Below, in pieces: positions 437 to 63,379 of a DNA stretch of 64,000 nucleotides. The translations under genes and the position numbers were made by a program. Every line of letters begins with the position of its first letter. Position 1 is the stretch's first letter. Under the pieces are notes generated by a model. It was not told where the DNA came from. It worked only from the letters and a program-made list of their open reading frames with translations, and searched no databases. Origin of the DNA: Sipunculus nudus (taxonomy: Eukaryota; Annelida; Sipuncula; Golfingiida; Sipunculidae). The stretch lies in NCBI GenBank assembly GCA_026874595.1, contig CM049311.1:55617676-55681675 (forward strand). Direction: 5' to 3'.

Positions 437-2511
437 TACAAAAATACAGGTGGCTCCACCAGTCTGCAGAAACTAATAAAAACACTTAATGGTCAATATC
501 CATGCAAAAAATCATGGTGATCTCTGCATTAGTTGTTCAGATACTTCAGTTTTTGTATCAAATTGTCCATTATTCTGAGGGATACTTCGGAGTCCTATAG
601 CTTGAAGGATATGGGTAACAGAGACCTAATTTCAAGTTTCCACAGGCACCTTTCATGGGCCTCCTTGCATGACAAGAATGAAGATTCTAGGTCAAGTTGT
701 TGCGATTTGTACCCTGTTGACAGATAACCACATCTTTAAAGGTCTCAAAAAAAAGAAAAAAAATTGTAAAAATTTGAAAAAAAAAATAGAGGTGGCAAAC
801 CCAGTCTGCAGAAACTGATGGAACAGCTCATGATCAATATGTATGCCGAAAATCATGACCATCAGTGTTGTAGTTATTGAAGTACTGCAGTTTTTGTATC
901 AAATTTTCCATTATTCTGCGGGGGGGGGGGGGGGTATTTTGGACCCATACAGCTTAAAGAATATGGGTAACAGAGACCTAATTTCAAGTTTCCATGGAGA
1001 CTTTTCATGGGTCTCCCTGTGTGTCAAGAATGAAGATTCTTGGTCCAGTTTTTATGATTTGTGCCCTGTTAACAGATGTTCATATCTTTAAAGGTCTCAA
1101 AAATACAGAAAAATTTCGTAAAAGAAAACGAACAAATACAGGTGGTGCCACCAGTCTGCAGAAACTTATGAAACACTCCATGATCAATATCCATGCAAAC
1201 AATTATGGTTATCTCTGCATTAGTTGTTCAGATACTTTAGCTTTTGTATCAAATTTTCCATTATTCTGAGCTGTACTTTGGAGTGCCATAGCTCAAAGGA
1301 TATGGGTAACAGAGACCAAATTTCAGGTTTCCATGGAGACTTATCATGGGTCTCCCTGTGTGTCAAGAACGAAGATTCTAGGTCCAGTCGTTACGATTTG
1401 TACCCTGTTGACAGATAACTACATCCTTAAAGGTCTCAAAAATGGAGAAAACAATTCGTGAACATTGAAAAATACAGGTGGCGCCACCAGTCTGCACAAA
1501 CTGATGAAACATCTCATGATCAATATGTATGTCGAAAATCATGACCATCAGTGATGTAGTTAATGAGATATTGAAGTTTTTGTATGAAATTTTTGACTAT
1601 TCTGGGGGGTAATTTTGGGCCCCATAGCTCGAAGGATATGGGTAACAGAGACCTAATTTCTGGTTTCCATGGAGACTTTTCATAGGTCTCTCAGTGTGTC
1701 GAAAATGAAGATTCTAGGTCTAGTCGTTACGATTTGTGCCACGCTAACAGATGACAGCATCCTCAAAGGTCTCAAAAATAGAGGAAAAAATCGTAAAAAA
1801 TCAAACAGTACAGGTGGCGCCACCAGTCTGCAGGAACTGATCGAACATCTCATGATCAATATGTATGCCAAAAATGAAGACCATCAGTGATGTAGTTATT
1901 GAGATATTGAAGTTTTTGTATGAAATTTTTTACTATTCTGGGGGGTACTTTGGGGCCCCATAGCTCAAAGGATATGGGTAACAGAGACCTAATTTCTGGT
2001 TTCCAAGGAGATTTTTCATGGACCTCTCAGTGTGTCAAGAATTAAGATTCTAAATCCAGTCTTTATGATTTGTGCCTTGTTAACAGATGTTCACATTTTT
2101 AAAGGTCTCAAAAATAGAGAAAAAAATTCGTAAAAAATCGAAAAATACAGGTGGCGCCACCAGTCTGCAGGAAGTGATGTAACATCTCATGATCAATATG
2201 TATGCCAAAAATCATGACCATCAGTCAAGTAGTTAATGAGATATTGAAGTTTTTGTATGAAATTTTTGACTTTTCTGGGGGGTACTTTGGGGCCACATAG
2301 CTCGAAGGATATGGGTAACAGAGACCTAATTTCTGGTTTCCAAGGAGATTTTTTATGGACCTCTCAGAATCCCAAGTTACAAGGTTCTAGGTCCAGCGGT
2401 TACGATTTGTGCCTGGTTAACGGACGGACAGACGGACAGACGGACAGATGGACGGACGACGGACAAAGAGTGATCGCTATAGCTCAGATGACTTTCAGTC
2501 AGCTGAGCTAA
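437..2511 (-). mobile_element. Family II Helentron-like element, tandem array plus terminus
   Basis: Six tandem units of about 336 bp begin at 449, 791, 1141, 1477, 1813 and 2150, each opening with the palindrome GGTGGCGCCACC or a variant. Each unit then carries phrases such as CAGTCTGCAGAAACTGATG, GGATATGGGTAACAGAGACC and GTTAACAGATG. The last unit breaks at GTTAAC into a GACGGACAGACGG-type microsatellite (about 2416-2462) and ends in the imperfect hairpin AGCTCAGATGACT-TTC-AGTCAGCTGAGCT followed by AA. In Helentron convention this terminus is the 5' end, so the copy is on the minus strand. No coding capacity is present. The array is fused on its left to family I sequence. Confidence 0.75.
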
Positions 2512-4710: not shown

Positions 4711-4714
4711 AAAT

Positions 4715-4740: not shown

Positions 4741-7143
4741 ACAAGGCCTAAAGGCCTAATGGGAACCTGTGCAATGGGATATACACCAGGTATAATGCTT
4801 CCATGCTTGACCATTACTTTTCAAGTACATGTGTAACATGTATTTGAACAATGCAAGTACTAAACATTTTGAACAGGAACAAGTTACACAAACATCACTG
4901 CTGAAATTCCGGCATTGGTGCACACAACACTAAAATGATTGTAGCTCGAACCACCAGTCTTGCATACAACAAAGATATATATATATATTTATGCCCTATT
5001 TTAGACTGATATGTGAAACCCCTCCAGCAAAATAAGCAGAGAAATACACTGTGCAAAATTATTGTAGGTGGTGCAAACAATCATGTACATGATAAAGCTA
5101 TCCAATATTTATAAATATGCCCAATTTCAGGCTGATGAATTCCTCCATAGAAATAAGCAGGTGTATACACTGTGCAAAGTCCGTGTAAGTGGCGATACCT
5201 GTCTTGTGAATGAGAAAGCCATCAAAAATGCATAGACAGGTCAAAATATCAGGTCAATACATCAAACTTCCCTTGAGTTTGATGCACTGGGCTGACCAGG
5301 CTTAGGGGAGAAAGGCAGTTGCACCTAGTGAACTGTGACAAATTGCTGGCTCAAGCTACTTCACTGAGTGAACTCTTGACCTGCACCTGGCTAGACTGAG
5401 TGAACTTTTGACCTGTACATGGCTGCACTGAGTGAACTCTTTACCTGTTGCATAATCAGGTATTATTGTTGGTGCCAAAACTGATGCAGTGAGCAGTCTG
5501 TCAAAGCTATAAATAGAATGCAGTTACTGCACTGATTGAACTCTTGACCTTTACTTGGCTGCACTTTTACCAATCCAGGCATTGTGCCAAAGCTATTAAT
5601 AGAGCTGACATAATCTTGGCCAATGGCTAACATCCAGGCATTGGCAAATCATGGCAATCTGCATATTATAAACCAAGTGTTCCATCTTTACACAAAAGTG
5701 GATCCTACTAGATATAATTTTGAAATACATTTTCCGAATATTAAATGCTTTTCAGCTGACTTTTTATAAAAAGAAATTATTAATAAATTATTACATATGC
5801 ATACTGAATGCAAAATTATAATACAGATACATCTCACTGCTGACAAATTCTTCAATTAAGTTGAGCATGGATACCAATTATTTATAATCCAAGTACAGCT
5901 GTCTTTAGACACAGAGAGTTGAATACCCATGGATGTTTACATTACCTAGTATGATTGCTAATTAAAATCATAAATCTAATTTTTTTTTAAAGTTTTTAAA
6001 ATGATTCTTGTCAATATAAACCATGGATAACCTGAAATCTAAACGTCTGGTGGCATGATGTTATAGATGCTGTTAAACAGATGCCAGGCTAGATGAAACT
6101 GCTTCACACAGCTAACATATATGTTAAAATGACCTAAATCAATCGCAACAATTCAGCCATAAATCATTCATGTGGAGCCATTAAAGACCATTATTAAAAG
6201 AATTATTGTTGGGATTATTCTTGTAAAATATTAAACAAATTGGCTTCAGTGGCGTTAGTCAAAAAAGGTTTGCAGGTTTATAACTCATATATGAAGATAC
6301 AGCACACTAAGTTCAGCTTCCCATAACTCAGCCAAAAAGCACTGAACCAAAACCATTTGCACAAACTTGAATTATCAAAATCTGAGGATAATTAATGTGC
6401 AAGATTTAAGAATTTGGCCCAGTGGTTTTTGAGAAGATCTTTGTAGCCACTGAGCTCAAATGGGCTGTCATGGCATATGACTAAATTAAGCTTCCAATAA
6501 CTCACCAAAAATTCACTGAACAGAGACCATTAGAACAAACCTCAGAAAGCACTACTCTAAGATCATTTCTGTGCGATATTTAACAATTTGGCCATATATG
6601 GTTTCAGAGAAGAAGTTTTTTTGTAGCCTTCAGTATGATACAGGCACTGAAGAGCACTGTACAAAAAAGGCTGATGCAGGTGCAGCACTAATACCTCAGT
6701 TTCAGATACGACTCATGTGACCAACATTGGTATAAAATTTGGTGATGATAGACATTTCTGAGATTGAGACTTTAGTTTGCTTTATTGGACAGATGACTTA
6801 GTTCAACTTCCTGTAACTCAGCCAAAAATCACCGAACTGAAGCCAATTGAACAAACATGTGAGAGATTGTTTCTGGGATTATTCCTGTGAAATATTGGAC
6901 AATGTGACTGGCCAGTTTTGGAGAAGAAGATTATTGAAGGTTTTTAAGCTTTTTCCCTATAAAATCTAATTAAATGTAGATAGCCAAAAAATAAACAAAA
7001 TCCAATAGAGGTTTTTGTGCATAAAGTTTGATGATGCTAGCTCCTGCCATTTTTTAGATAGTACGGTTTAATGTACAGACAATGCACAACAGAAGGACGC
7101 ATGGCGGACGACGCACACTATCGCATAAGCTCACAGGTTCGCT
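4741..7143 (-). mobile_element. Family I Helentron-like element (2.4 kb)
   Basis: The left end is ACAAGGCCTAAAGGCCTAAT followed by GGGAACCTGTG. The right end is CGCATAAGCTCACAGGTTCGCTTG, where the usual CTAA is decayed. The two ends carry the inverted repeat GCGAACCTGTG / CACAGGTTCGC with one mismatch on the left. Inside, in order, are palindrome-headed units (about 4930-5260), a 32-bp minisatellite (CACTGAGTGAACTCTTGACCTG type, about 5340-5460), a TATA-like CTATAAATAG at 5508, a body with repeated phrases such as CTGAACCAAAACCATTTG, and a GACGCAC-type microsatellite beside the right end. No Rep/helicase ORF is present. In Helentron convention the copy reads on the minus strand. Confidence 0.75.
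5340..5460 (+). repeat. 32-bp minisatellite inside family I element
   Basis: About 3-4 copies of a 32-bp unit (ACTGAGTGAACTCTTGACCT, then GCACCTGGCTAG or a close variant). The same minisatellite is at the equivalent place in other family I copies, around 18735, 23375, 31205, 51565 and 61705, so it belongs to the element. Confidence 0.8.
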
Positions 7144-7149
7144 TGAAAA

Positions 7150-7590
7150 GCATAAGGTAGAAAGTAACATTGAGATTACTAAGACAGGCATTAAGTAGAA
7201 AGTAACTTTGAGATTACTGAGACAGGCATAAGGGAGAAAGTAACTATGAGATTACTGAGACAGACTCAAGGTAGAAAGTAACTTTAAGATTACTGAAACA
7301 GGCATAAGATTGAGTGTAACTTTGAGATTACTTAGACAGACACAAGGTAGAAAGTAACTTTAAGATTACTGAAACAGGCATAAGATAGAAAGTAACTTTG
7401 AGATTACTTAGACAGGCATAAGGTAGAAAATAACTTTAGGATTACTAGAACAGGCAAAAGGTAGAAAATAACTTTGAGATTACTGAGACAGGCATAAGGT
7501 TGAAAGTAACATTAGAGATTGCTGAAACAAGCATAAGGTAGATAGTAACTTTAAAATTACTGAAACAGGCATAAGGTAGAAAGTAAGAAA
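7150..7590 (+). repeat. 38-bp minisatellite, about 11 units
   Basis: Tandem units of the type GCATAAGGTAGAAAGTAACT followed by TTGAGATTACTGAGACAG. Units differ by a few substitutions (for example ACACAAGG for GCATAAGG). The last part of the array, from 7336, is included in the 2.36-kb tandem duplication and reappears at 9697-9950. Confidence 0.9.
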
Positions 7591-9696
7591 GAAACTATGA
7601 TTTGATCCTCCACCATAGGTATGAAATATACACAAAACAGTCCCTCTCATTACAACTTCTGCATAGCATGGAAAGGTATTAATGTCCTTGAAGACCACAG
7701 GTAACAGCGTGAGGACATGATCAATAGACAAAACCCCAAGACTGTAGGTCTTTTCATGTACGGGGGATTCATAAAAATAACACAATGATCTTTGGCAAAT
7801 GTGGCATGAGCTTAATAAAGCTTCATATCCAACACCAGAGTGTTATTATGCATGGTTATTATTTATGCCAGATTCACATCAGAGCTTAAAGAAACATGCA
7901 TGTAATGTAATCTGATTTTCAAAAACCCCTTAGATCAAAATGGAAGCCCCTCTGTGTGTACTCATTAGGCAAAATAAATGAGCAAAATCTATGTACAGAT
8001 TTAAAATTGCACAGCCAAGGTAGCTAAGATGCTGTAGTGTCACCTATTGTAGCTCAATTTGTTGAAAGTGGGGGCTCAAGGGATATGCAACTATCTCATA
8101 TCACAAAGACTCACAATAACACAATGCAATATTTGTGTTCAGTGAAGGGAGTTTGGTTTATTACTTTTTGATCCTGTGGCAAATCATGATAAGCAGAGAT
8201 ACTGGTCATGTGACAAGCCCAGTGGGCTGGTGGGTGAAAAAGGAAGTTATTATTTCTGTCTCTACTGATTAAGGAGTACCAATGAGCCAGGCCATAGGAC
8301 AAGTTAACACAATACATAAAAACAAGGGACCCATAGGTCACGGCTCTCAGCTGATTGTCACAGTTATAACTGCATTACCATAGATTTTTTTAAATTGCAA
8401 TAAAAATACTATCCTCAGTGCTCAGGAACTAGGGCTCAATGACTGGGGGGGGGGGGGGGGAGTTAATTAACACCTTTGGATATAAATACAGAATACGGAA
8501 TTAAATTCAATGGTGCGTAAATTACAGGGACTGGTGGGAGTTACAGCACCTCTGCATATATACGTAAAGGATAAAAATTTAATTTAAATGAAATTTTTTT
8601 AAATATTTAAAAACAGGCAGAGAGATGGAAAACAAAGCAAATAACTTAAATTTCCATTCTACTGAGACAAGAAAATAATAAAAAAATATTTGCAATAGAT
8701 CCCATTTTTTCTTTTGTTAAGTCATTTTTTTTAAGTTTATAAATTTTACTATATATTTACAGTATATCATATATATCTGAATATTTAAATTGATTCACAA
8801 ATCTAAATTGCATCAACATTTATACTTAATTAGTAAGGTAACATCAAATTATGCACACAGTTATATATATTTATATATTTTTTTTAATAAAATGTATTTT
8901 TGAAATTTGCAAAGCAAAAAATATATGAAAATAACACTCCAGAATTCACAATTTTAAATTGCACCTTTATTTATCCATGATTTGTTTCATATATTATCAG
9001 TTTATGCCTACTGATGGGTTGAATTATAATTTGTTAAATTATTTAAAAGGAAATAATTTCTTAAAAATGCTAAATCAGAACAATGTGGCATCTCTTGTAT
9101 TACTTCTTGAATTAATATTTCAAGAAAAATTGTGCACATTGGATCAAAAACAGCTTTACATTTAAAGAAATACAGTTGACAATATCAAACCATGTATTGC
9201 AATATAATTTGTGGTGGTGGTTGGGGGTGGGGGGGGGATGTTAGGGTGGGGCCCATGAGAATAAGTGTATGTTTATTACAGCAGGGCCGCTCTGCCAGTG
9301 CTGCATCACTTATAAGGTTACCGAGGGAAGGCTGTAGTGGGCAAGAGTGGGGTCTTGGATATACAAAATGCAAATACATTAGAGCATCTGAAAAACTTCA
9401 ATAATTATAATAATTTTTAAGCTTTTACTTTCAAATTTCAGAATTCAACAGATTAAATCTACATGTATCCCAGCAGTGCAAAATAAATTAAATATACTTT
9501 GAGAAAAAAAAGTGCAATGCTCAAATTTGGACAAAATTTAGGTACCTATTTTATATTATTGCTAATATTTTAAAAAAATTTAAAAGATTTTGATCTAATT
9601 TTGGGTATACAATTAAATTTTGATTACAGTATTTTCTCAAATAATTCGGAATGAAAAAAATAATTACGATCTTAGAATTACAAAACAAAACAATAA
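7336..9696 (+). repeat. Tandem segmental duplication, copy 1 (2,361 bp)
   Basis: Sequence from ACAGACACAAGGTAGAAAG at 7336 onward reappears at 9697 with an offset of 2,361 bp and only scattered differences. The segment holds part of the 38-bp minisatellite, unique-looking sequence, a family II-type left-end fragment at 8322, a G16 tract (8445-8460), AT-rich stretches, and a GC-richer patch at about 9210-9360. No protein gene is recognised. The short reading frames it contains are shared between copies only because the DNA is duplicated. Confidence 0.93.
8322..8600 (-). mobile_element. Fragment beginning with a family II-type left end
   Basis: ACAAGGGACCCATAGGTCACGGCTCTCAGCTG matches the family II-type hairpin terminus (consensus GGGACCCATGGGTCAC..GCTCAGCTG). 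The following bases (TTATAACTGCAT..) match those after similar ends at 47889. No matching right end follows, so this is a fragment or a shorter, less understood subfamily. The duplicate copy is at 10683. Confidence 0.5.
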
Positions 9697-12056
9697 ACAG
9701 ACACAAGGTAGAAAGTACCTTTAAGATTACTGAAACAGGCATAAGATAGAAAGTAACTTTGAGATTACTTAGACAGGCATAAGGTAGAAAATAACTTTAG
9801 GATTACTAGAACAGGCAAAAGGTAGAAAATAACTTTGAGATTACTGAGACAGGCATAAGGTTGAAAGTAACATTAGAGATTGCTGAAACAAGCATAAGGT
9901 AGAAAGTAACTTTAAAATTACTGAAACAGGCATAAGGTAGAAAGTAAGAAAGAAACTATGATTTGATCCTCCACCATAGGTGTGAAATATACACAAAACA
10001 GTCCCTCTCATTACAACTTCTGCATAGCATAGAAAGGTATTAATGTCCTTGAAGACCACAAGTAACAGCTTGAGGACATGATCAATAGACAAAAACCCAA
10101 GACTGTAGGTCTTTTCATGTACGGGGGATTCATAAAAATAACACAATGATCTTTGGCAAATGTGGCAGGGGCTTAATAAAGCTTCTTATCCAACACCAGA
10201 GTGTTATTATGCATGGTTATTATTAATGCCAGATTCACATCAGAGCTTAAAGAAACATGCATGTAATGTAATCTGATTTTCAAAAACCCCTTAGATCAAA
10301 ATGGAAGCCCCTCTGTGTGTACTCATTAGGCAAAATAAATGAGCAAAATCTATGTACAGATTTAAAATTGCACAGCCAAGGTAGCTAAGATGCTGTAGTG
10401 TCACCTATTGTAGCTCAATTTGTTGAAAGTGGGGGCTCAAGGGATATGCAACTATCTCATATCACAAAGACTCACAATAGCACAATGCAATATTTGTGTT
10501 CAGTGAAGGGAGTTTGGTTGATTACTTCTTGATCCTGTGGCAAATCATGATAAGCAGAGATACTGGTCATGTGACAAGCCCAGTGGGCTGGTGGGTGAAA
10601 AAGGAAGTTATAATTTCTGTCTCTACTGATTAAGGAGTACCAATGAGCCAGGCCATAGGACAAGTTAACACAATACATGAAAACAAGGGACTCATAGGTC
10701 ACGGCTCTCAGCTGATTGTCACAGTTATAACTGCATCATCATAGATTTTTTTAAGTTGCAATAAAAATACTATCCTCAGTGCTCAGGAACTAGGGCTCAA
10801 TGACTGGGGGGGGGGGGGGAGTTAATTAACACCTTTGGGTATAAATACAGAATACGGAATTAAATTCAATGGTGCTTAAATTACAGGGACTGGTGGGAGT
10901 TACAGCACCTCTGCATATATACGTAAAGGATAAAAATTTAATTTAAATGAAATTATTTTCAAATATTTAAAAACAGGCAGAGAGATGGAAAACCAAGCAA
11001 ATAAATTTAATTTCCATTATACTGAGACTAGAAAAAAATAAAAAAAATGACTTAACAACAGAAAAAATGGGATCTATTGCAAATATTTTTTTAAGTTTAT
11101 AAATTTTACTATATATTTACAGTATATCATATACATCTGAATATTTAAATTGATTCACAAATCTGAATTACATCAACATTTATACTTAATTAGTCAGGTA
11201 ACATCAAATTATGCACACAGTTTTATATATTTATATTTTTTTTTTATAAAATATATTTTTGAAATTTGCAAAGCAATAAATATATGAAAATAACACTCCA
11301 GAATTCACAATTTTAAATTGCACCTTTATTTATCCATGATTTGTTTCATATATTATCAGTTTATGCCTACTGATGGGTTGAATTATAATTTGTTAAATTA
11401 TTTAAAAGGAAATAATTTCTTAAAAATGCTAAATCAGAACAATGTGGCATCTCTTGTATTACTTCTTGAATTAATATTTCAAGAAAAATTGTGCACATTG
11501 GATCAAAAACAGCTTTACATTTAAAGAAATACAGTTGACAAAATCAAACCATGTATTGCAATATAATTTGTGGTGGTGGTTGGGGGTGGGGGGGGGGATG
11601 TTAGGGTGGGGCCCATGAGAATAAGTGTATGTTTATTACAGCAGGGCCGCTCTGCCAGTGCTGCATCACTTATAAGGTTACCGAGGGAAGGCTGTAGTGG
11701 GCAAGAGTGGGGTCTTGGATATACAAAATGCAAATACATTAGAGCATCTAAAAAACTTCAATAATTAGAATAATTTTTAAGCTTTTACTTTCAAATTTCA
11801 GAATTCATCAGATTAAGTCCACATGTATCCCAGCAGTGAAAAATAAATTACATATACTTAGAGAAAATAAGTGCAATGCTCAAATTTGGACAAAATTTAA
11901 GGTACCTATTTTATATTATTGCTAATATTTTAAAAAAATTTAAAAGATTTTGATCTAATTTTGGGTATACAATTAAATTTTGATTACAGTATTTTCTCAA
12001 ATAATTTGGAATGGAAAAAATAATTACGATCTTGGAATTACAAAATAAAACAATAA
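9697..12056 (+). repeat. Tandem segmental duplication, copy 2
   Basis: This is the second copy of the 2.36-kb segment. It ends in CAATAA directly against the terminus of a family I element at 12057, at the point where copy 1 ends in CAATAA against the minisatellite at 9697. Differences from copy 1 are few, apart from homopolymer lengths (G14 at 10806-10819 against G16) and a roughly 50-bp local inversion (11037-11091 against 8681-8731). The duplication is therefore recent on the scale of the surrounding repeats. Confidence 0.93.
10683..10960 (-). mobile_element. Duplicate of the family II-type left-end fragment
   Basis: Copy of the 8322 fragment carried by the tandem duplication. The hairpin has CTCATAGGTC in place of CCCATAGGTC. 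Confidence 0.5.
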
Positions 12057-12294
12057 ACAAGGCCTTCAGGCCTAATGCAAACCTGTGCAATGAGATTACA
12101 CCATATATAATGCTTCAATGCTGGACCATTACTTTTCAAGAACATGTGTAACATGTTTATGAACAATGCAAGTACCAAACACTTAGAACAAGAAAAAATT
12201 AAACAAACATCACTGCTGCAATTCTGGCATTCTATTTGCACACAACACAAAAACCAGAATATGGGTAGTCAACAAGCGACTACGTGTATCCTCA
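12057..12294 (-). mobile_element. Truncated family I left end stacked outside another
   Basis: A family I left end (ACAAGGCCTTCAGGCCTAAT, then GCAAACCTGTGCA) runs for about 190 bp. It is joined at about 12250 to ACCAGAATATGGGTAGTC and neighbouring bases, which normally lie about 170 bp inside the other type of left end (compare 12467-12500). A second complete left end follows at 12295. So two termini lie in direct tandem, the outer one a chimera of the two left-end types. Confidence 0.65.
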
Positions 12295-12607
12295 ACAAGG
12301 CCTACAGGCCTAATTGGAACCTGTGCAAAGTTTAGAAGTATGAATGGAGGTTTATTTTAAAAATTTAATATTGATCCTCCTAAGTCCTGCATATCTACCT
12401 TAGTCATGATGATTTCAGCAAAATGGACGTTTCTGACCTACAAGTTTCGGACTAGGACATTTTAAAACCAGAATATGGGTAGTCAACAAGCCACTATGTG
12501 TATCTGCAGGAATCAGAGTGGGACGGGTGAAATGAGGCATGGATTAGGTGGCAAGGGGAATAGAGCGTGATGTGTTGCATATCAGCATGGATGTCTGCAA
12601 CTAAAAC

Positions 12608-15600
12608 GTGAATGTAGGTGGTGCCACCTGTCATAAAATCAAGAAAATTGTCAAACCACTGCTAAGATATGAGTGGTCTTATCCCAAAACAGTTAAACAG
12701 ATGGATGCTGTGCATAAGTGGTTGCAGGTGGCACCACCAATTTTGTGTATGATGAAGAGCTATGTGAGATCTATACATAAGCAAAATTTTGGCCCCATCG
12801 GTCAAACAGTTCCCGAGATATGAGCTTGGATGTCTACAGAGTAAACATGAATGTAGGTGGCGCCACCTGTCATAAAATTGAGAAAGCTGTCCAGGATGTA
12901 TAAACCTGCATAATTTCAGGTGGATAAGTCAAACCACTGCTGAGATATGAGTGATTTTATCCCAAGGCAGATGAACAGATGGACGCTATGCATAAATGGT
13001 TGCAGGTGGCGCCACCAGTTTTGCCTATGATGAAGAGCTATGTGAGATCTATACACAGGCAAAATTTTGGCTCAATCGGTCAAACGGTTCCCGAGATATG
13101 AGCTTGGATGTCTGCAGAGTAAATGTGAATGTAAGTGGCGCCACCTGTCATAAAATCGTGAAAGCTGCCAAGGATGTAAAATACCTGAAAAATTTCAGGT
13201 GGAAAAATCAAACCACTGCTGAGATATGAGTGATTTTAACCTAAGGCAGATGAACAGATGGATGCTCTGCATAAATGGTTGCAGGTGGCGCCACCAGTTT
13301 TGCCTATGATGAAGAACTATGTGAGATCTATACACATGCAAAATTTTGGCCTAATCAGTCAAACAGTTCCCGAAATATGAGCTTGGATGTCTGCAGAGTA
13401 AATGTGAATGTAGGTGGCGCCACCTGTCATAAAATCAAGAAAGCTGTCAAGGATGTAAAATACCTGCAAAATTTCAGGTGGAAAAGTCAAACCACTGCTG
13501 AGATATGAGTGATTTTAACCTAAGGCAGATGAACAGATGGATGCTGTGCATAAATTGTTGCAGGTGGCACCACCTGTTTTGCCTATGATGAAGAGCTATG
13601 TGAGATCTATACACATGCAAAATTTTGGCCTTATCGGTCAAACGTCTCCTGAGATATGAGCTTGGATGTCTGCAGAGTAAATGTGAATGTAGGTGGTGAC
13701 ACCTGTCATAAAATCGAGAAACCTGTCAAGGATGTAAAATACCTGCAAAATTTCAGGTGGAAAAGTCAAACCACTGCTGAGATATGAGTGATTTTAACCT
13801 AAGGCAGATGAACAGATGGATGTTCTGCATAAATGGTTGCAGGTGGCACCACCAGTTTTGCCTATGATGAAGAGCCATGTGGGATCTATACACATGCAAA
13901 ATTTTGGCCTTATCGGTCAAACATCTACTGAGATATGAGCTTGGATGTCTGCAGAGTAAATGTGAATGTAGGTGGTGACACCTGTCATAAAATCGAGAAA
14001 CCTGTCAAGGATGTAAAATACCTGCAAAATTTCAGGTGGAAAAGTCAAACCACTGCTGAGATATGAGTGATATTATCTGTAGGCAGATGAACAGATGGAC
14101 TCTGTGCAAAAATGGTCGCAGGTGGCGCCACCAGTTTTGCCTATGATGAAGAGCTATGTGAGATCTATACACATGCAAAATTTTTGCCCAATCGGTCAAA
14201 CGGTTCCCGAGATATGAGCTTGGATGTCTGCAGAGTAAATGTGAATGTAGGTGGAGCCACCTGTCATAAAATCGAAAAAGCTGTCCATGATGCATAAACA
14301 TGCAAAATTTCAGGTGGATAAGTCAAACCACTGCTGAGATATGAGTGATATTATCCTAAGGCAGATGAACAGACTGACGCTGTGCAAAAATGGTGGCAGG
14401 TGGCACCACCAATTTTGTGTATGATTAAAAGTTATGTGAGATCTATACACATGCAAAATTTCAGGGGGATATGTGAAACCAGTCCTGAGATATAAGCCTG
14501 AATGTCTGCAGCATATACATAAATGTAGGTGGTGCCACCTGCCAAAAAATCTAGAAAGCTATCCAAGATGTATAAACATGCAAAATTTTAGGCAGATAAG
14601 TCAAACCACTACTTAGATATGAGTGATATTAGCCCACTGCAGACAAACAGATGGACGTTGTGCAAAAATGGTGGCACCACCAATTTTGTGTATGATGAAG
14701 AGCTATGTAGAATCTATACACATGTAAAATTTTTGCCCAATCGTCAAACGGTTCCCGAGATATGAGCTTGGATGTCTGCAAAGTAAATGTGAATGTAGGT
14801 GGAGCCACCTGTCATAAAATCGAAAAAGCTGTCCATGATGTATAAACATGCAAAATTTCAGGTGGAAAAATCAAACCACTGCTGAGATATGAGTGATTTT
14901 AACCTAAGGCAGATGAACAGATGGATGCTCTGCATAAATGGTTGCAGGTGGCGCCACCAGTTTTGCCTATGATGAAGAACTATGTGAGATCTATACACAT
15001 GCAAAATGTTGGCCTAATCAGTCAAACAGTTCCCGAAATATGAGCTTGGATGTCTGCAGAGTAAATGTGAATGTAGGTGGCGCCACCTGTCATAAAATCA
15101 AGAAAGCTGTCAAGGATGTAAAATACCTGCAAAATTTCAGGTGGAAAAGTCAAACCACTGCTGAGATATGAGTGATTTTAACCTAAGGCAGATGAACAGA
15201 TGGATGCTGTGCATAAATGGTTGCAGGTGGCACCACCTGTTTTGCCTATGATGAAGAGCTATGTGAGATCTATACACATGCAAAATTTTGGCCTTATCGG
15301 TCAAACGTCTCCTGAGATATGAGCTTGGATGTCTGCAGAGTAAATGTGAATGTAGGTGGTGACACCTGTCATAAAATCGAGAAACCTGTCAAGGATGTAA
15401 AATACCTGCAAAATTTCAGGTGGAAAAGTCAAACCACTGCTGAGATATGAGTGATTTTAACCTAAGGCAGATGAACAGATGGATGTTCTGCATAAATTGT
15501 TGCAGGTGGCGCCACCAGTTTTGCCTATGATGAAGAGCCATGTGGGATCTATACACATGCAAAATTTTGGCCTTATCGGTCAAACGTCTCCTGAGATATG

Positions 15601-18689: not shown

Positions 18690-18840
18690 GGCAGTTGCCC
18701 CTGAGTGACCTGTGACAAATTGCTGCCTCAAGCTACTGCACTGAGTGAACTCTTGACCTGCACCTGGCTAGACTGAGTGAACCTTTTGACCTGTACCTGG
18801 CTGCACTGAGTGAACTCTTGACCTGTTGCATATTCTGACA
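18690..18840 (+). repeat. 32-bp minisatellite, family I body
   Basis: CTGCACTGAGTGAACTCTTG-type units, about four copies, followed by a GGCAGTCTGCC palindrome and a TATA-like motif. Same place and order as in the other family I copies. Confidence 0.8.
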
Positions 18841-18860
18841 CAGTTGGCAGTCTGCCAAAG

Positions 18861-28055: not shown

Positions 28056-28204
28056 ACAAGGCCTACAGGCCTAATGCGAACCTGTGCAACGAGATTAAAC
28101 CAGGTATAATGCTTCAATGCTGGACCATTACTTTTCAAGAACATGTGTAACATGACTATGAACAATGCAAGTACTAAACACTAAAGGACACTGTGCAAAA
28201 ATGG

Positions 28205-45804: not shown

Positions 45805-47384
45805 AAATAAATCATTTCATGGTCTGTTCACAAATTTTCAAGGAAATAATTAGGATTCTCATGGTTTTTTGCCCTATAGTGTCTTCATTTACTAGCTCTT
45901 AATACATGACTCAGTAGGCATTAATATTGGGCTGATAAGCCTTACTTGAGTTGTGATACAAGCCATGGATATGGGGGACATAATGTACTGCAGCACTTAT
46001 CTATCCTGTTGCATTTATATCCTGGTAAACAGGCAATAATCTGAAAATAAGTCTACGAATGATGATTCAACACAAAAGAATATACATGTGAAATCACATG
46101 TACACAAAAAAAATGAAAATCTGTCTCTATGGTAATGAGTCATTTCCTGTATCATGTACAAGTTAGCTGTTGTCCAATTACCCACATGAGCCATGATTGC
46201 ATTCATGCGGTCAGAAATTAAACTGGCAGAGGGACTTACCAAATTGCTGAGTTAAAACAATTTTTTCTCAAACTTGGTTGTTTTTGTTGGAAAGTAAACA
46301 AAAAATGCTAAAAAATTTTTCTGTTCTGATTTAATTCAAGTGACAGAATACTTGTAGACCATGAGGCATTTTAAAAAATGACAACAATATTTGCATCCTC
46401 ATAGCACCTTACAGTGTGGTCCTTGTTGAAGGGTGTAAAAGCACTAAGTATATTATGGTCATGGACTCTCTAATGTTAGAGGGCCAAATGGCACTACTCC
46501 TTTACCAAATATTCAGCTGTCTGATCCTCCCAACACATCCATGTCCCTGGCTTCCACTAAATATTCTAAGCATGTTTAGGGGCATTCGTATATTTTTGTG
46601 ACAAAATGTGAGTTGTTACCTTTCAAGGGTTAGGGTTAGCTCCCTTCATAGTGAAAAGCACTTACTTTTATTGAGCATGTTCAGTGTTATCTGGAAGGGT
46701 AGATGCCAAGGTCATGGAGGACTTTGCCTAATTTCCTTTTTTATTCAAAATTCACACATATGATTAATTTATTTATGTATTGAGATCTTATTAGCATGTT
46801 AAACCCCTTTTCCTGCTCTTCTTTTTCTACCACAGCAAACCATCACAGTGACTATCAAGGTATTTTCAAATACATTAAATAATTTTAAGTAGTTTTTAGC
46901 AAGTGGAAACCCTGTATTGACCTCCAGCTCTCATCAATGAATCCTCTTCTGTTGACCTATGGTTTAAAGTGCACAATGCAAGTGCGGTACCGGTAAATGC
47001 AAGAGTGGTTGATGGAATTCTTTTTTCAGTAGCTCAGCCAGACAAGAGTGCTGGCAGTTCATGTGAAGGCAAGTTGTCAAGAATTTGGGGTTGAGGTCTG
47101 GTCTAGCTACCGTGTCTGAGGAGGCAGAGACATGAGGAACCAGGCCTGATCAAGCTCTAGTATTCATGGCAAAAATTTAATCAAATTTAATTGTCTTTGA
47201 CATTAAATGTACAGCTGTTACTGTTAATACCCTCTTAGATAATTTATTACAGTGCATGAAGGAAGTGTGGAAATCTTATCTGATAGCATGTTTAATTTAA
47301 GATTTAAAAATTCACAAATTTTTGTTACAAACTCAACCAACTGAAACAAAAAACTCACCAGGTTAGGAGACCAATAGAAGTATA
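45805..47384. other. Spacer, no gene recognised
   Basis: Mixed unique-looking sequence. A somewhat GC-richer patch at 46920-47160 has no identifiable reading frame or repeat match inside the window. Confidence 0.3.
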
Positions 47385-47386
47385 TA

Positions 47387-47555: not shown

Positions 47556-47557
47556 TA

Positions 47558-48475: not shown

Positions 48476-48799
48476 ACAAGGCCTACAGGCCTAATGTGAA
48501 CCTGTGCAAAGTTTAGGAGTATGAATGGAGGTTTATTTTTAAAATTTAATATTGATCCTCCTAAGTCCTGCATATCTACCTTAGTCATTATGATTTCAGC
48601 AAAATGGACGTTTCAGACCTGCAAGTTTCGGACTAGGACATTTTAAAACCAGAATATGGGTAGTCGACAAGCCACTATGTGTATCCGCAGAAATCAGAGT
48701 GGGACGAGTGAAGTGAGGCATGGATTAAGTGGCAAGGGGAATAGAGCGTGGTGTGTTGAATATTAGCATGGATGTCTGCAGCTTAAACGTGAATGTAGG

Positions 48800-49780
48800 T
48801 GGTGCCACCTGTCATAAAATCGAGAAAATTGTCCAGGATGTATAAACCTGCAAAATTTCAGGTGGATAAGTCAAACCACTGCCAAGATATGAGTGTTTTT
48901 ATCCCAAGGCAGATTAACAGATGGATGCTGTGGATAAGTGGTTTCAGGTGGCGCCAAGAGATATGTGAGATCTATACACATGCAAAATTTTGGCCTAATC
49001 GGTCAAACGGTTCCCAAGATATGAGCTTGGATGTCTGCAGAGTAGATGTGAATGTAGGTGACGACACCTGTCATAAAAATGAGAAAGCTGTCAAGGATGT
49101 ATAAAACTGCAAAATTTCAGGTGGATAAGTCAAACCACTGCTGAAATATCAGTGATTTTATCTAAAGGCAGATGAACAGATGGACGCTGTGCATAAGTGG
49201 TTGCAGGTGGCACCACCAGTTTTGCCTATGATGAAGTGCTATGTGAGATCTATACACAAGCAAAATTTTGGCCCAATCGGTCAAACGGTTCCTGAGATAT
49301 GAGCTTGGATGTCTGCAGAATAAACGTGAATGTAGGTGGCGCCACCTGTCATAAAATCGAGAAACCTGTACAGGATGTATAAAACTGCAAAATTTCAGGT
49401 GGATAAGTCAAACCACTGCTGAGATATCAGTGATTTTATCTAAAGGCAGATGAACAGATGGACGCTGTGCATAAGTGGTTGCAGGTGGCACCACCAGTTT
49501 TGCCTATAATGAAGTGCTATGTAAGATCTATAAACATGCAAAATTTTGGCCCAATTGGTGAAAAGGTTCCCGAGATATGAGCTTGGATGTCTACAGAGTA
49601 AATGTGAATGTAGGTGGCGCCACCTGTCATAAAATCGAGAAAGCTGTCCAGGATGTATAAACCTGCAAATATGGATAAGTCAAACCACTGCTGAGATATG
49701 AGTAATATTATCCCAAGGCAGATGAACAGATGGACGCTGTGCAAAAATGGTTGCAGGTGGCGCCACAATTTTTAGTGCAT
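48800..49780 (-). repeat. Satellite-like array in the 48476 element
   Basis: Dimeric 129+150-bp units with palindromes at about 48799, 49206, 49337, 49485, 49614 and 49756. One unit near 48948 is damaged: the palindrome GGTGGCGCCA runs directly into AGAGATATGTGAG, deleting about 20 bp of the unit. Confidence 0.8.
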
Positions 49781-50065
49781 GTTATAAAGCTAACAAAGGG
49801 CTGCATTTGTGCAAAATTTTTAGCCTGATCGGTCAAACGGTTCACAAGATATGTGGGTTTATGTGTGGAAACAGACACACAAATGGACACTGGGCAGCAA
49901 GGAAAGATCAGAGGTCAACCAAAAATGAAGGCGCAGCAGTTAACATGTGACCTCATGATAAACCTGATTCACTTAAAATGCAAACCAAGTTTTTTCAGTT
50001 GAAAGATATAGTTCCAATAATCTTGGAATTCTGCATCTACACATTGTGTCCAGACGTCTAGATGC

Positions 50066-50087
50066 TGTGTCTAGACGTCTAGACACA
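50066..50087. repeat. Perfect 22-bp palindrome
   Basis: TGTGTCTAGACGTCTAGACA plus CA reads the same on both strands, centred on ACGT. The partial copies CAGACGTCTAGA just before it and TCTAGACAC just after show a local expansion of the GTCTAGAC word. It is followed by a C13 tract and is found only in this family I copy. Confidence 0.95.
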
Positions 50088-51045
50088 TTTTCTAGACACC
50101 CCCCCCCCCCCAGCCAGGTCAGTTGCCATGATGTCTGGACCCCACCTGTTTGTACTGAGTGACCTCTTGACTTGGCTGCATGAAGTCAAATCTGTTTTCA
50201 AATACAGAAAGCCATTTTCAATTGGCTACAATGCTTTTTTAAAAACTGTATTGACCAAATCTATTCTTATAAAACTGGCAGAACCCTACCATAGAATAAT
50301 TCTTGTTACGTTTAAACCAATCAGCTGAACAGTTTCATCATAAATCAGTGTATAAGCTAGAAGAGTTTAAAATTACATTTTCGCTTGTGAAAAACACATC
50401 AATGTAGGTGGCGCCACCAATACCTCAAAATCAGATATGACATATGTGACAAACATTGGTATAAAATTTAGTCATTATAGCTCTAGCCATTTCTGAGATT
50501 TTAATTTTAGTGTGCTTTTTTGGACAGATGACTAAGTTCAACCTCCTGTAATTCGGCCAAAAATCTCCGAACTGGAACCATTCGAACAAACTTGAGAGAG
50601 ATTGTTCCAGGGATCATTTCTGTGAAATATTGGACAATTTGGCTGGACAGTTTCAGAGAAGAAGATTTTTAAAGGTTTTTAAGCTTTTTCTCTATAAAAT
50701 CTAAATTAATGCAGATACCCAATAATAAGCTCCAGGGCACCAAGTTTCACATGTGATGAATTCTTACATGTAATTTGGAGCTGCTAGCTCAGACAGTTTC
50801 TGACTTACAGCCATGGACGGCGGAAAGCCAGCCCTGGACAGCGGACGGCGGATGGCTAACGACGGACGGAAGACGCTGCGCCATCGCATAAGCTCACAGG
50901 TTCGCTAAAAAAACTGGAAATGTACCGGTTTTGCTCACTGAAGATAGGTTAAAATGAATAATGCCATCTGTAGTTTATATACTAGTCTGTAAAAGTCACA
51001 TGATCAATGTTTGGTAAAGCACATTACAAATCGTAGGTAAAATAA

Positions 51046-53640
51046 ACAAGGTCTACAGGCCTAATGCGAACCTGTACATTGGGAAATACACCAGGTATAA
51101 TGCTTGACTTACAGTCAGCTGAGCTAAAAATGATTGTAGCTGGCACCACCAGTCTTGTAAACAACGAAGCTATCAGAGATATATACATATGCCCCAGTGC
51201 AGACTGATATATCAAACCCCTCCTGAGAAATAAGCAGGGACACACACTGTGCAAATATTATTGTAGGTGGCACCACCAGTCTTGTATACGACAAAGCTAT
51301 TCAATAGGTATAAATATGCCCAATTTCAGGATGATATATCAAATTCCTCTATAGAAATAAGCAGGCATAAAAGTCACAAACTGTGCAAAAGTCATTGTAG
51401 ATGGTGACACCTGTCTTGTGAACAAGAAACACATCAAAGACAGGTCAAAATATCAGGCCAATACATCAAACTTACCTTAAGTCTGATGCATGGGGCTGAC
51501 CATGCTTAGGTGAGAAAGGCAGTTGCCCCGAGTGAACTGTGATAAATTTGCTGGCTTAGGCTACTGCACTGAGTGAACTCATGACCTGCACCTGGCTAGA
51601 CTGGGTGAACTTTTGACCTGTACCTGGCTGCACTGAGTGAACTCTTGACCTGTTGCCTAATCTGATACAGTTGGCAGTCTGCCAAAGCTATAAATAGATT
51701 GGCTCCACATGCAGCCCTGAGAGGCATGACACCCATGAGGTGATCACATGGTGCCCATGAGGTGTTCACATGTCACCCATGAGGGGATCACATGCCTTGT
51801 GCTTGGCTGCACTGACTGAACTCTTGACCTGTATCTGGCTGCACTGAATGAACTCTTGATCTATTGCCAAATCTGAAACAGTTGGCAGTTTCTTAACCTA
51901 TTTAAATATACAGACACAATCTTAGCCTGTTGGCAAATCTGTTTACACATACTGAAAGACTTTGGCTAAAATGCATTTTTTCAAGCTGACATATCCATAA
52001 ACTTTTTATCAAAATATCTAGAATAATAAAAGATGCAGTTCTTTCATAAATAAGCTGAATCCCACAACATTTGATATGTTACAGATTATTGCATAAATTC
52101 TCAGGATAGTAGTTCCTGCTATTCTGAGAAATTATGGGTTAATGTACAGATGATCAATGATACCCATACAAAAAAAGGTCAATGCAGGTGGCACCACCAA
52201 TACCTGAATTTCATATATGGCTCATGTGACCAACACTGGCAGATGATAGCTCCGGCCATTTCTGATACTGTCAATTTAGTATGCTTTTTTTGGACAGATG
52301 ACTAGGGTCAACTTCCTGTAATTCGGCCAAAATTCATCGAACTTGATTCATTTGAACAAACTTGAGAGAGATGGTATAAAAGATTATTTCTGTGATTTTT
52401 TTTTAACAAATTGGCTTGACCGTTTCGAAGGAGAAGATTTTTAAAGTTTTTTAGCTTTTTCTCTATAAAATCTGAGAAAATGCAGATTTTTTCAGATGGC
52501 TAATTTTTTGCATTAAATTTCATGATGCTAGCTCCAGTCGTTTTCAAAATAGTATAGGTTAACATATACCAGTGATTGTAAACATTGCCTGGCATGAGGA
52601 ATATCTAAAATCATAAATCTACATTTTGTAAAAGTTTTTAAAAAACATTCTTATCAATATTGACCAAAGATAACCTGAAATCTAAATAATAATTATTCAG
52701 GGGATTATTCTTGTAAAGTATTAAACAAAATGGCCTTAGTGGCTTCAGTCAAAAAACGTTTTGCAGGTTTATAACTCATATGGGAAAATAAAGCAAATGG
52801 CCAAGTTAAGCTTCCCATAAGTCAGCCAAAAATCACTGAACCAAAACCATTTGAACAAACTTACCAACATCTAAGGATAATTAATGTGTGAGATTTAAGA
52901 ATTTGGCACAGTGGTTTTTAAGAAGAAGATCTTTGTAGCCACTGAGCTAAAATGGGCTGTTATGGCTTATGACTAAATTCAGCTTCCCATAACTCAGCCA
53001 AAAGTCATGGAACTGAAACCATTTGAACAAATTTCAGAAAGCACTTCCCTATGATCATTTCTGTGCGATATTAAACAATTTGGCCATATGGTTTCAGAGG
53101 AGAAGTTTTTTGTAGCTGTCAGTATGATACAGGCACTGATGACCCCCGGACAAAACAGGCCGATGCAGGTGGCGCCACCAATACCTCAATTTCAGATATG
53201 ATTCATGTGACCAACATTGGCATAAAATTTGGTGATGATAGCTCCAGCCGTTTCTTAGACTGTAATTTTAGTATGCTTTTTAGGACAGATGACTAAGTTC
53301 AACTAGCTGTAACTCGGACAAAAATCACCGTACTTAAACCATTCGAACAAACTTGAGAGAGATTGTTCCTGGCATAATATCTGTGAAATATTGGACAATT
53401 TGGCTGAACAGTTTCGGAGAAGAAGATTTTTAAAGCGTTTTTAGCTTTTCCCTATAAAATCTAAGAAAATGCAGTTAGCCAAAAAATAAGCAAAATCCGA
53501 TAGAGTTTTTTAGATGACTAATATTTTGCATAAAATTTCGTGATGCTTACTCTTGCCGTTTTCAAGATAGTATAGGTTAACGTACAGACGACGGACGACA
53601 GACGACGCCACACCATGGCATAAGCTCACAGGTTCGCTAA
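51046..53640 (-). mobile_element. Family I Helentron-like element (2.6 kb) with family II scrap
   Basis: The left end ACAAGGTCTACAGGCCTAAT / GCGAACCTGT is at 51046. The right end CATAAGCTCACAGGTTCGCTAA ends at 53640. It carries palindrome-headed units at about 51140-51420, the 32-bp and 22-bp minisatellites, a TATA-like motif at 51688, body palindromes near 52189 and 53168, and a GACGGACGAC microsatellite. At 51105-51127 the usual left flank is replaced by the last 23 bp of a family II right terminus. Confidence 0.8.
51105..51127 (-). other. Family II terminus embedded in a family I element
   Basis: GACTTACAGTCAGCTGAGCT+AA matches the terminal bases of family II copies (closest to 27317-27339). 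It is joined on the left to TATAATGCTT of the family I left flank and on the right to AAATGATTGTAGCTGGCACC of the family I repeats. A clean two-sided switch without extra bases is seen. Confidence 0.75.
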
Positions 53641-56030: not shown

Positions 56031-56039
56031 TTCAGTGCT

Positions 56040-60667: not shown

Positions 60668-63379
60668 ACAAGGCCTACAGGCCTAATGCAAACCTGAACA
60701 ACGAGATTACACCAGGTATAATACTTCAATGCCGGATCATTACTTTTCAAGAACATGCGTAACATGTATATGAACAATGCAAGTACTAAACACTAAACAG
60801 ACGCTGTGCAAAAATGGTAGCAGATGGCACCACCAATTTTGTGTATGATTAAGAGCTATGTGAGATCTATACACATGCAAAATTTCAGGGGGATATGTCA
60901 AACCAGTTCTGAGATATGAGTGATTTTATCCCAAGGCAGATGAACTGATGGACGCTGAGCAAAAATGGTGGCAGGTGGCACCACCATTTTTAGTGTATGT
61001 TATAAAGCTTTCCAAGGGCTACATTTGTGCAAAATCTTTAGCCTTATCGGTCAAATGGTTCCCGAGATATGTGAGTTTATGTGTGGAAACAGACGCACAA
61101 ATGGATGCTGGGCAGAGAGGAAAGGTCAGAGGTCAACCAAAAATGAGGGCGCAGCAGTTCACATGTGACCAATCATAAATCGGAATTTTAAAAAATTCTG
61201 CCAAGTGGTTATGGAGGAGTTCTCCGGCAGCGTCGGCATCCGACTGAAAATATAGTATCTGCAAAACTCTGATTTGGCGGATACAATGATTGTAGCTGGC
61301 ACTACCAGTCTTATATACAACGAAGAGATATATAAATATGCCCAATGTCAGACTGATATGTTAAACCTTTCCTTTGAAATAAGCAGGGACATACACTGGG
61401 CAAGAATTACTGTAGGTGGCGCCATCAGTCTTGTACACTGTAAAAGTACCCGATATGTATAAACATGCCTAATTTTAGGCTGATGTATCGAATTCCTCTG
61501 TAGAAATAAGCAGGCACATACAATGCAAAAGTCGATGTAGGTGGCACCACCTGTCTTGTAAATAAGAATACCATCAAAGACGCATAGACAGGTCAAAATA
61601 AAAGTCCAGTAAATCAAACTTCCCCAGAGTTTGATGCACTGGGCTGACAAGGCTTTGGTGAGTAAAGCAGTTGCTGCCGAGTGACCTGTGACAAATTGCT
61701 GCCTCAAGCTACTGCACTGAGTGAACTCTTGACCTGCACCTGGCTAGACTGAAGTTTTGGCTTGTACCTGGCTGCACTGAGTGAACTCTTGACCTATTGC
61801 ATAATCTGACAAAGCAGTCTGCCAAAGCTATAAATAGAATGCAGCTACTGCACTGAGTAAACTCTTGACCTCTACCTGGCTGCACTTCTTCCAATCCTGG
61901 CACTGTGCCAAAACTATTTATAGAGCTGACATCATCTTGGCCAATGGCCAACATCAAGGTACTGGCAATCTGCCAGTGGTAAACCAAGTACTGCCATCTG
62001 TACACAAAAGTGGTCCCTACTTGAAATAACTTTGAAATTTATTTTCCTATTACAAAATGCTTTTCAGCTGACTTTTTATAAAAAAGAAATCAGAAATATA
62101 TGTAAAATTATTACGGTGCATACTGAATGCAAAATTAAAATACAGATATATCGCACTGATGGCAAATTCTTGAATTAAGTTGAGAAGGGATACCAATAAT
62201 TTATAATCCACATAAAGTTGTCTTTATATAGCCACAGAGAGCTGAATTTACATGATTGTAATAGATGCTGATAAACTGGTGCCAGGCTAGATGTAACAGC
62301 ATATCACAGCTCATATATATGGTAAAATGACTCAATACAATCTCCATAATTCAGCCAAATATCATTCATTTGGAACCATTAATGACAATTATTATAAGAA
62401 TTATTGCAGGGATTATTCTTGTAAAATATTTAACAAACTCACTTCAGTGGCATCAGTCGAAAAACTTTTCACAGGTATATAACTCATATAGGAAGATACA
62501 GCAAACTGGCTAAGTTCAGCTTCCTTTAACTCAGCCAAAAAGCATTGAACCAAAACCATGAAATTGAAAAAATTGAACAAACTTGAATTATCAACATCTG
62601 AGGATAATAAATGTATGAGATTTTAAGAATTTGGCCCAGTGGTTTTTGAGAAGAAGATCTTTGTAGCAACTGGGCTAAAATGGGCTGTTATGGCTTATGA
62701 CTAAATTCAGCTTCTCATAACTTAGCCAAAAGTCACTGAAAAGAGATAATTTGAACAAACTTCAGAAAGCACTAGCCTAGGATTATTTCTGTGCGATATT
62801 AAACATTTTGGCCACATGGTTTCAGAGAAGAAGTTTTTTGTAGCCCTCAGTGTGATACAGGCACTGATGACCCCGTACAAAAAAGGCCGATGCAGCTGGC
62901 GCCACCAATACCTCAATTTCAGATATGACCTATGTGACCAACATTGGCATAAAATTTGGTGAAGATAGCTCCAGCCGTTTCTGAGATTTATATTTTAATA
63001 TGCTTTTTTGCACAGTTAACAAAGTTCAACCTTCTGTAACTCGACCAAAAATCTCTGAATTGGAACCATTCGAACAAATTTGAGAAAAATTGTTCCAGGG
63101 ATCATTTCTCTGAAATATTGGACAATTTGGCTTGACAGTTTCGGAGAAGAAGATTTTTAAAGCTTTTATAGCTTTTTCCCTATAAAATCTAAGAAAATGC
63201 AGTTAGCCAAAAAATAAGCAAAATCTGATATAGTTTTTTTGATGACTGATTATTTGCAAAAAATTTGGTGATGCTAGCTCCTGCCGTTTTTGAGATAGCT
63301 ATGGTTAACATACAGACGATGCACGACGCACAACGCACGACACACGACGCACCATCGCATAAGCTCACAGGTTCGCTAA
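60668..63379 (-). mobile_element. Family I Helentron-like element (2.7 kb)
   Basis: The left end is ACAAGGCCTACAGGCCTAAT / GCAAACCTG. The right end CATAAGCTCACAGGTTCGCTAA ends at 63379. It carries a short array (60800-60990), the GGCGGATAC segment at 61272, palindrome-headed units at about 61290-61550, the 32-bp minisatellite, TATA-like CTATAAATAG at 61828 and its reverse at 61914, a body with a palindrome variant GCTGGCGCCACC at about 62896, and a GACGCACAACGCACGAC microsatellite. It is a compact form of the 28056 element and keeps the body segment that the 28056 copy has lost. Confidence 0.82.
61828..61923. promoter_or_regulatory. TATA-like motifs facing both ways
   Basis: CTATAAATAG at 61828-61837 and CTATTTATAG at 61914-61923, same placement as in the 12295 and 28056 elements. 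Promoter activity is inferred only. Confidence 0.35.

Follow-up and report, generated by a model that had tools for sequence, protein, structure and literature searches.

Published accounts of HINE/DINE-1 transposons, in the parts considered here, give these elements tandem repeats in the centre, a microsatellite, a 3′-end palindrome and subterminal inverted repeats (subTIRs) 11 bp or longer, together with an autonomous partner encoding Rep, helicase and endonuclease (PMC4067079); the order along the element is subTIR, microsatellite, repeats, subTIR, palindrome (PMC4067079, PMC7492417). In the same parts of that literature, HINE arrays, and the satellites presumed to derive from them, have so far been described mainly by sequence. 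Here we analyse a 64,000-nucleotide stretch of Sipunculus nudus DNA (GCA_026874595.1, contig CM049311.1, positions 55,617,676 to 55,681,675; hereafter ‘the window’), whose elements are HINE/Helentron-type rolling-circle transposons with internal repeats headed by a common 12-bp palindrome, GGTGGCGCCACC. From comparison of sequences we would give a probability of about 55% to the reading that this palindrome is a predicted cis-acting protein-binding site of non-coding 5′ sequence in a Helentron lineage, carried from there into HINEs and multiplied in them by tandem duplication.

Exact copies of GGTGGCGCCACC number 27 in the window, with none in 100 dinucleotide shuffles, and copies with up to two mismatches number 101 against 0.45 expected; genome-wide there are 111,757 exact copies, as against 14 of a control in which the letters are reversed. 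The initial annotation had proposed that the palindrome opens the internal units of two otherwise different element families, and the spacing agrees: 336-337 bp separate the units at 1477, 1813 and 2150 and those at 44777, 45113 and 45450, whilst between 12617 and 17984 a spacing of 129 bp mostly alternates with one of 149-150 bp, and single units in element bodies are headed in the same way (for example at 20112, with one mismatch, 26148, 50407 and 53168). ‘Two families’ was, however, too low a count, because the window holds ends of three types (I, II and A, the last with arrays and nested in I), with a type III at other loci; the palindrome is present in units of all three types, whose subterminal repeats differ, and of type III, for which one end was seen.

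The weak ‘grammar’ said to follow the palindrome is there too. Among 199 sites (≤1 mismatch), each scored in its better-fitting orientation, GAGATAT (≤1 mismatch) lies 55-125 bp downstream in 153 and ATGCAAAAT (≤2 mismatches) 20-75 bp downstream in 156, with neither motif on either side of 20; random positions in the same repeat-rich DNA gave 772 and 1051 of 4000 respectively, though these were scored in a single orientation and are therefore no like-for-like control. Twenty stretches of C1, drawn from the first 100 palindromes listed and holding mostly isolated sites with few dense arrays, contain many unit types with diverged flanks, in the order palindrome, ATGCAAA-like block, GAGATAT. The 199 oriented sites fell into 20 clusters, of which 12 were single sites, and several of the small clusters are truncated or misoriented copies of larger ones.

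Searches further afield returned little. A scan of 2.9 million viral contigs for the palindrome followed at 20-50 by ATGCAAAAT gave no match, and the same pairing in bacterial and archaeal genomes gave one, in a Bacteroidales metagenome-assembled genome, that we judge to be chance; no Rfam family of 4227 scored above its gathering threshold, and the open frames of the window all fall short of 150 aa. In the literature, the exact 12-mer GGTGGCGCCACC met only an unrelated bacterial match, and the main-text literature searched contained no account of this palindrome, nor of one internal palindrome common to several HINE families and a Helentron.

We turn next to the conservation of the palindrome. 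So that units were not chosen by the palindrome itself, they were located by their downstream flank alone, with seed flanks taken from palindrome-bearing units; this gave 224 units for evaluation, of which eight with five or more mismatches were set aside and a further nine, of types V, VI and VIII, were left out of the count. In the remaining 207 units, which belong to the eight larger types, the palindrome differs at 89 of 2070 non-CpG positions (0.043) and the flanks at 2579 of 26485 (0.097), and inclusion of all seven set-aside units of these types, with their 53 mismatches, would raise the former to at most ~0.066. CpG positions differ in 97/414 and 403/1148 cases respectively in the same units, and the decay of the palindrome’s own CpG is uneven (CA in 54 and TG in 31 of 207, in units that are non-independent within one array). 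Flank windows with as little divergence as the palindrome itself are scarce in the four largest types (A, 2/113; B, 6/113; II, 0/113; U4, 8/112).

When the changes are divided into private and shared, the private (singleton) changes are equally frequent in the palindrome (39/2070; 0.0188) and the flanks (510/26485; 0.0193), whereas shared changes occur in the palindrome at about a third of the flank rate (50/2070, 0.024, versus 2069/26485, 0.078; Fisher’s test on cells, which are non-independent, p=6.5e-7). An equal rate at non-CpG positions and their neighbours, the outcome on which the initial annotation would have abandoned its idea, is thus absent, both here and in the Helentron copies described below; its argument that retention implies a role stands as to constraint, with the qualification that the deficit is confined to shared changes. 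Equal private and reduced shared change would place the constraint, apparently, on element lineages and not on each insertion: the palindrome has stayed nearly unchanged through family evolution and is so probably a site that the elements need, one that seems to be held while lineages evolve and to drift after insertion.

The consensus of the eight types is RYA-GGTGGCGCCACC-WRT. Position -1 is A in 8/8 type consensuses and, with a shared change of 0.014, is as constrained as the core; further out the consensus letters are R and Y on the one side and W, R and T on the other. Across the 199 sites, A stands at -1 in 192, Y at -2 in 188 and G at -3 in 158.

Several observations weigh against this interpretation. 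Counted on distinct shared patterns, the contrast between singleton and shared changes reaches only p=0.057, and units within one array are not independent. The result is reversed in type U5b, where 101/113 flank windows equal the palindrome or fall below it, and is weak in U5a, III and VII, with 24, 45 and 20 of 113 flank windows as low. The eight set-aside units, of the 224 found by flank, have to be reckoned with as well. Nor is the palindrome unique in its conservation, because blocks GATCTATACACATGCAAAATTT and AGATATGAGTGA of the unit are nearly as conserved in some types; low divergence is also seen in the windows GATCTATACACA and CATGCAAAATTT of type A, AGATATGAGTGA of B and CATGATCAATAT of II. 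Positions +2 and +3 vary within types (0.164 and 0.121), so that the wider dyad is one of consensus letters only. Lastly, the three Helentron copies considered next are near-identical, such that their units are counted up to three times, and 6/10 of their changes fall at one site, which all three copies have in common. As a separate observation, apparent short deletions of the palindrome occur at L027 592, L032 5331, L013 901 and L011 875 (L numbers designate fetched stretches), some of them between small direct repeats, and may point to palindrome instability.

The genome contains at least 143 matches to Helitron_like_N (150 of 195 candidates scored). Five Rep loci whose open frames are long were retrieved together with ~8 kb on either side, and ten further loci were sampled downstream. 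In 5/5 of the partial frames, Helitron_like_N and a PIF1-type helicase score above the Pfam cut-off and an endonuclease match is present, falling below the cut-off in the C17 copy (L007) and exceeding it in L010 only for Exo_endo_phos_2; the Rep frame is uninterrupted for 2,342 aa in C17, 676 aa in C10 and 1,124 aa in C5. The first group of loci (L001-L006) contains no palindrome with up to two mismatches in the 47.9 kb fetched, a scope not delimited by element ends. In the second group, a family II 3′ end lies at L007 3278-3312, 1 kb past the stop codon; over the 35 bp compared, the C17, C10 and C5 copies match this end at 94-97%, and their homology to one another ends there. The 5′ end of family II is found in C17 and C10, and in C5 it is cut off where the fetched piece stops, so that this Helentron shares its ends with the family II HINEs and is probably what moves them. 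In 8/10 of the loci sampled downstream, a family II-like 3′ end with up to five mismatches follows in the Rep orientation (L048 and L051 being the others), a count that has no chance control; those of L045-L047 resemble HINE ends of the window and may be separate insertions, and the homology to L007 (98%) stops exactly at the 3′ end only in L042 and L043.

At a matching place in the C17, C10 and C5 copies are type A units and the A hairpin, with the 336-bp units of family II further upstream. The C17 element runs from C17:35625477 to 35639642 or 35640365 (~14.2-14.9 kb), two limits being possible because two family II 5′ ends are nested; its A/B sites (L008 3767-4168) precede the furthest-upstream ATG in the Rep frame (L008 2495) by 1.3-1.7 kb. 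Seventeen units of the Helentron copies, found by flank alone at 72-82% flank identity, carry 10 non-CpG changes in 170 palindrome positions against 40.2 expected. A fourth copy, on C13 (L009-L010), shows no more of the A segment than its outer parts in the fetched stretch, with no site of up to two mismatches in L009 and a single two-mismatch match in L010 (6783). The reading that Rep loci lack the palindrome save for a stray insertion at L008 was also considered; it holds for the first group, and is wrong for the C17/C10/C5 group because the L008 units stand at a homologous place in three copies, with family II units 5′ of them. As for a partner of family I, its subTIR GCGAACCTGTG has no exact match in the five Rep loci (~8 kb each side), with one 1-mismatch match in L009, and its 3′ end is absent, at up to four mismatches, from the ten further downstream pieces.

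Synthesising these results, we suggest a model in which the site would originate in the 5′ non-coding region of the Helentron, pass by inheritance to non-autonomous HINEs and be multiplied there by tandem duplication. Selection would act on those copies that go on to amplify, and a sequence-specific protein would bind the site and promote either expression or mobilisation. A bound protein is favoured because the site lies upstream of the Rep frame, is shared across end types, is absent from the first group of Rep loci examined and has the shape of a dyad; its dyad form is also why the binder might be a dimer. With less assurance, we would take the binder to be a host factor in preference to Rep, since the site is common to types whose end signals differ and is missing from the examined loci of the first group. 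The pattern of reduced shared and equal private changes would mean that copies drift after insertion whilst the founders of later copies have the site, and a site kept by founders presumably serves the element and not the host locus. Amongst the roles put forward at the outset, general binding by a protein thus appears to fit best, and a hairpin fits poorly given folding energies of -2.3 to -3.1 kcal/mol. More tentatively, and here we would put the chances clearly below even, these elements may be a transposon lineage whose dyad site, up to 18 bp long, serves a putative host regulatory or architectural protein and is selected for the benefit of the element; its more than 100,000 exact core copies would form a dense field of potential binding sites.

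The most specific form of host-factor reading, that the protein is CTCF or an E2F/DP dimer and that the element would so spread architectural or S-phase sites, we regard as unlikely, judging from motif likeness. The CTCF core, SYAGRKGGCRS, fits GYAGGTGGCGC on the + strand of the site, in keeping with the preferences at positions -1 to -3 given above, and the E2F/DP dyad, TTTGGCGCCAAA, shares its centre TGGCGCCA with the palindrome. A CTCF orthologue is present at C11:67037578, with 56% identity to the human fingers; of core fingers 3-7, the first three (3-5) are well conserved and the last two (6-7) less so. That said, so many motifs are known that resemblance to some one of them is expected by chance, the CCA part of the CTCF consensus is missing, and CTCF does not need a near-symmetric form. 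In the literature, GGTGGCGC together with CTCF met a chance match in vector sequence. Because E2F also fits, at the dyad centre, we claim neither as the binder. Precedents for such a reading are a CTCF-like motif at the topologically associating domain boundaries of squid (PMC9023564) and a loop-anchor motif inside placozoan Mutator ends (PMC12221973), as given in the parts of those papers considered. Among the matches listed in the CTCF search there are also many clustered C2H2 zinc-finger matches on C16, 12-62 Mb, a pool of other candidate binders.

Binding by the element’s own Rep, in the manner of an iteron at a rolling-circle origin with repeats near the 5′ end loading the Rep-helicase, is likewise improbable to our minds. 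It would account well for the position of the family II units directly inside the 5′ end, in HINE and Helentron alike, and for a constraint on lineages only. The absence of sites from the 47.9 kb of the first group speaks against it, however, as do the sharing of the site between types with differing subterminal repeats and the additional sites that the Helentron carries far from its ends.

That the palindrome is a structural or recombination signal, folding as a single strand or promoting the unequal exchange that builds and rearranges arrays, seems to us rather improbable. There is a likeness to the phBglII400 satellite, whose junctions map to its 12-bp palindromes and for which such a role was suggested (PMC5139131, in the part considered), four of the eight set-aside units look by inspection like short deletions that remove the palindrome, and non-CpG compensatory pairs number 3 against 0.73 expected (p=0.035). 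Set against this, the folding energies are small, a symmetric complementary pair occurs in only 4/45 of the units with two or more changes (among 216 units), one of these being the decay of both CpG bases, and position -1, outside the dyad core, is equally constrained. Least probable of all is that there is no function and that the units merely share recent ancestry or exchange sequence, the palindrome being conspicuous because they were noticed by it: the unit types do look homologous, young copies (≥90% flank identity, CpG included) show no deficit (0.75 changes on average, where 0.70 are expected) and the strict distinct-pattern test is marginal, but the deficit holds in units found without the palindrome and in the diverged Helentron units, and exchange restricted to 12 bp between sequences 20-30% apart would be unlikely.

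Returning to the window itself, its elements have the architecture of HINEs. SubTIRs of at least 11 bp are found at both ends of I (GCGAACCTGTG/CACAGGTTCGC), II (GCTCAGCTGAC/GTCAGCTGAGC) and A (GTATCCGCCAAAAT/GTTTTGGCGGATAC, 13/14), and type III (AGTATCCCCCGAC..GTCTGGGGATAC, resembling an A end; L012, L018, L019) was not placed by this test because only one of its ends was seen. Stem-forming palindromes, read by eye, stand near the 3′ ends of I (AGGCCTACAGGCCT) and II (TGACCCATGGGTCA); ACGG or ACGACG tracts lie by the 5′ end, and the 336-bp and 129/150-bp arrays occupy the centre. Family I, with AACAAGGCCTACAGGCCTAATGCGAACCTGTG at one end and AAGCTCACAGGTTCGCTA at the other, an 11-bp subTIR and an ACGACG microsatellite, follows the published HINE order on the minus strand, whilst family II has a subTIR (GCTCAGCTGAC) and end palindrome (TGACCCATGGGTCA) of its own. 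The 129/150-bp arrays belong to type A, bounded by GTATCCGCCAAAAT and the hairpin GTATCCGCAAAAC..GTTTTGGCGGATAC, which sits at one fixed place within family I (for example at 18280, 30747 and 61255) and whose right end also occurs outside it (for example in L022 and at window 410). By composition, insertion flanks are A-rich on the + strand and T-rich on the element strand, where a HINE is expected to insert at TT without target duplication.

In the order of the window, an exact palindrome at 113-124 (+), in a type A-like unit, is followed by the A right-end hairpin at 410-439 and then by a family II array on the minus strand (440-2513), with 336-bp units at 449, 1141, 1477, 1813 and 2150, an ACGG microsatellite and a 5′ end AGTCAGCTGAGCTAAAA at 2497-2513. 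A family I HINE at 4744-7142 (-), with an AGGCCT palindrome and subTIR at its 3′ end (4744) and a 5′ end AAGCTCACAGGTTCGC at 7127-7142, has neither an A array nor a site of up to two mismatches; beyond it, 7333-12059 is a direct duplication of ~2.37 kb (7333-9699 and 9694-12059, 96.7% identity, 38-bp repeats at the borders). The next family I HINE (12298-20609, -; second 3′ end at 12060, 5′ end at 20594-20609) has a nested type A array of palindrome-headed A and B units at 12617-17995 (+), and the A right-end hairpin at 18280-18309 (+). A family II fragment at 22033-22880 (+) is opposite in orientation to the window’s other elements.

Further family I HINEs, all on the minus strand, lie at 22901-25225 (sites 23086, 23200, 24378 and 24833), 28059-32941 (type A array with sites 28210-30445, hairpin at 30747), 48479-50905 (short type A array at 48798-49756, body site 50407), 51049-53637 (sites 51139, 51266, 52187 and 53168) and 60671-63376 (sites 60823, 60974, 61415, 61540 and 62895, hairpin at 61255), and a complete family II HINE lies at 44243-45806 (-), with a 3′ end AACAAGTGACCCATGGGTCATGACGCTCAGCTGAC, 336-bp units at 44439, 44777, 45113 and 45450, a microsatellite and a 5′ end AGTCAGCTGAGCTAAAA. 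Elsewhere, family I ends abut head to tail at L026 1210-1250 (..GGTTTGCTA joined to ACAAGGCCTACA..), as expected for rolling-circle tandems, and C1:1405145-1418994 repeats a type III unit pattern six times on one strand at 2.6-2.9-kb spacing, perhaps a local tandem of whole elements.

Between 4744 and 63376, the nine left and eight right ends of family I all point one way, with two doubtful matches left out: a right-end match at 36405 with three mismatches, judged spurious, and a minus-strand match that overlaps the left end at 33365. Over 0-51 Mb of C1, pairs of different families 20-400 kb apart lie on the same strand in 249/415 cases (permutation mean 0.498, p<0.0003), and in 227/385 once neighbouring copies are collapsed; much of this signal is in the first 1.1 Mb, without which agreement is 189/348 (0.543, p=0.03), and family I ends by themselves give no significant result in a runs test (p=0.12). 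An earlier control repeat was too rare to be usable (26 matches), and a second, which we take to be tRNA-like, agreed in strand in 10/25 cases. One possible cause of a regional bias would be insertion coupled to the direction of the replication fork, by analogy with IS200/IS605, for which such coupling is described in the part of the source considered (PMC5371812).

What is new in these observations should be set out with care, as it is known already, from the portions of the literature considered, that HINEs have internal arrays, that the monomers of these carry conserved motifs and that bivalve satellites contain palindromes (PMC7492417, PMC5139131, PMC4067079); one site common to several families and a Helentron is apparently new. 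It amounts to a short array site with signs of constraint at the level of lineages, which a Helentron matching family II also has in its 5′ region, and it raises the testable question of which protein reads the arrays and whether this aids movement or expression of the element. Were the reader a host factor, much of its supply of binding sites would come from these elements; were it Rep, they would contain an origin-like array in a eukaryotic rolling-circle transposon.

Of the systems closest to this one, and as far as the relevant parts of each source go, HINE/DINE-1 has the same subTIRs, 3′ palindrome, microsatellite, central repeats and autonomous partner, but its published description gives no site such as the 12-bp palindrome that is common here to the central repeats of several subTIR types and to the Helentron (PMC4067079). 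Cg_HINE of Crassostrea gigas has the same architecture, with diverged but related monomers carrying two shared motifs, which we compare by description; its authors could relate it to no autonomous Helentron, whereas family II is linked to one here (PMC7492417). The phBglII400 satellite, with a 12-bp palindrome and clustered junctions, the DTC84 pearl element, with a conserved palindrome near its repeat junction, and the bivalve satellites BIV160 and Cg170, whose monomers have two conserved motifs, are likewise compared with the present palindrome by description (PMC5139131). The loop-anchor motif within placozoan Mutator ends and the GC-rich, CpG-containing CTEP loop motif of ctenophores offer a parallel of a different sort (PMC12221973): loops were shown for the former, and loops and proteins for the latter, where the present case is one of sequence alone.

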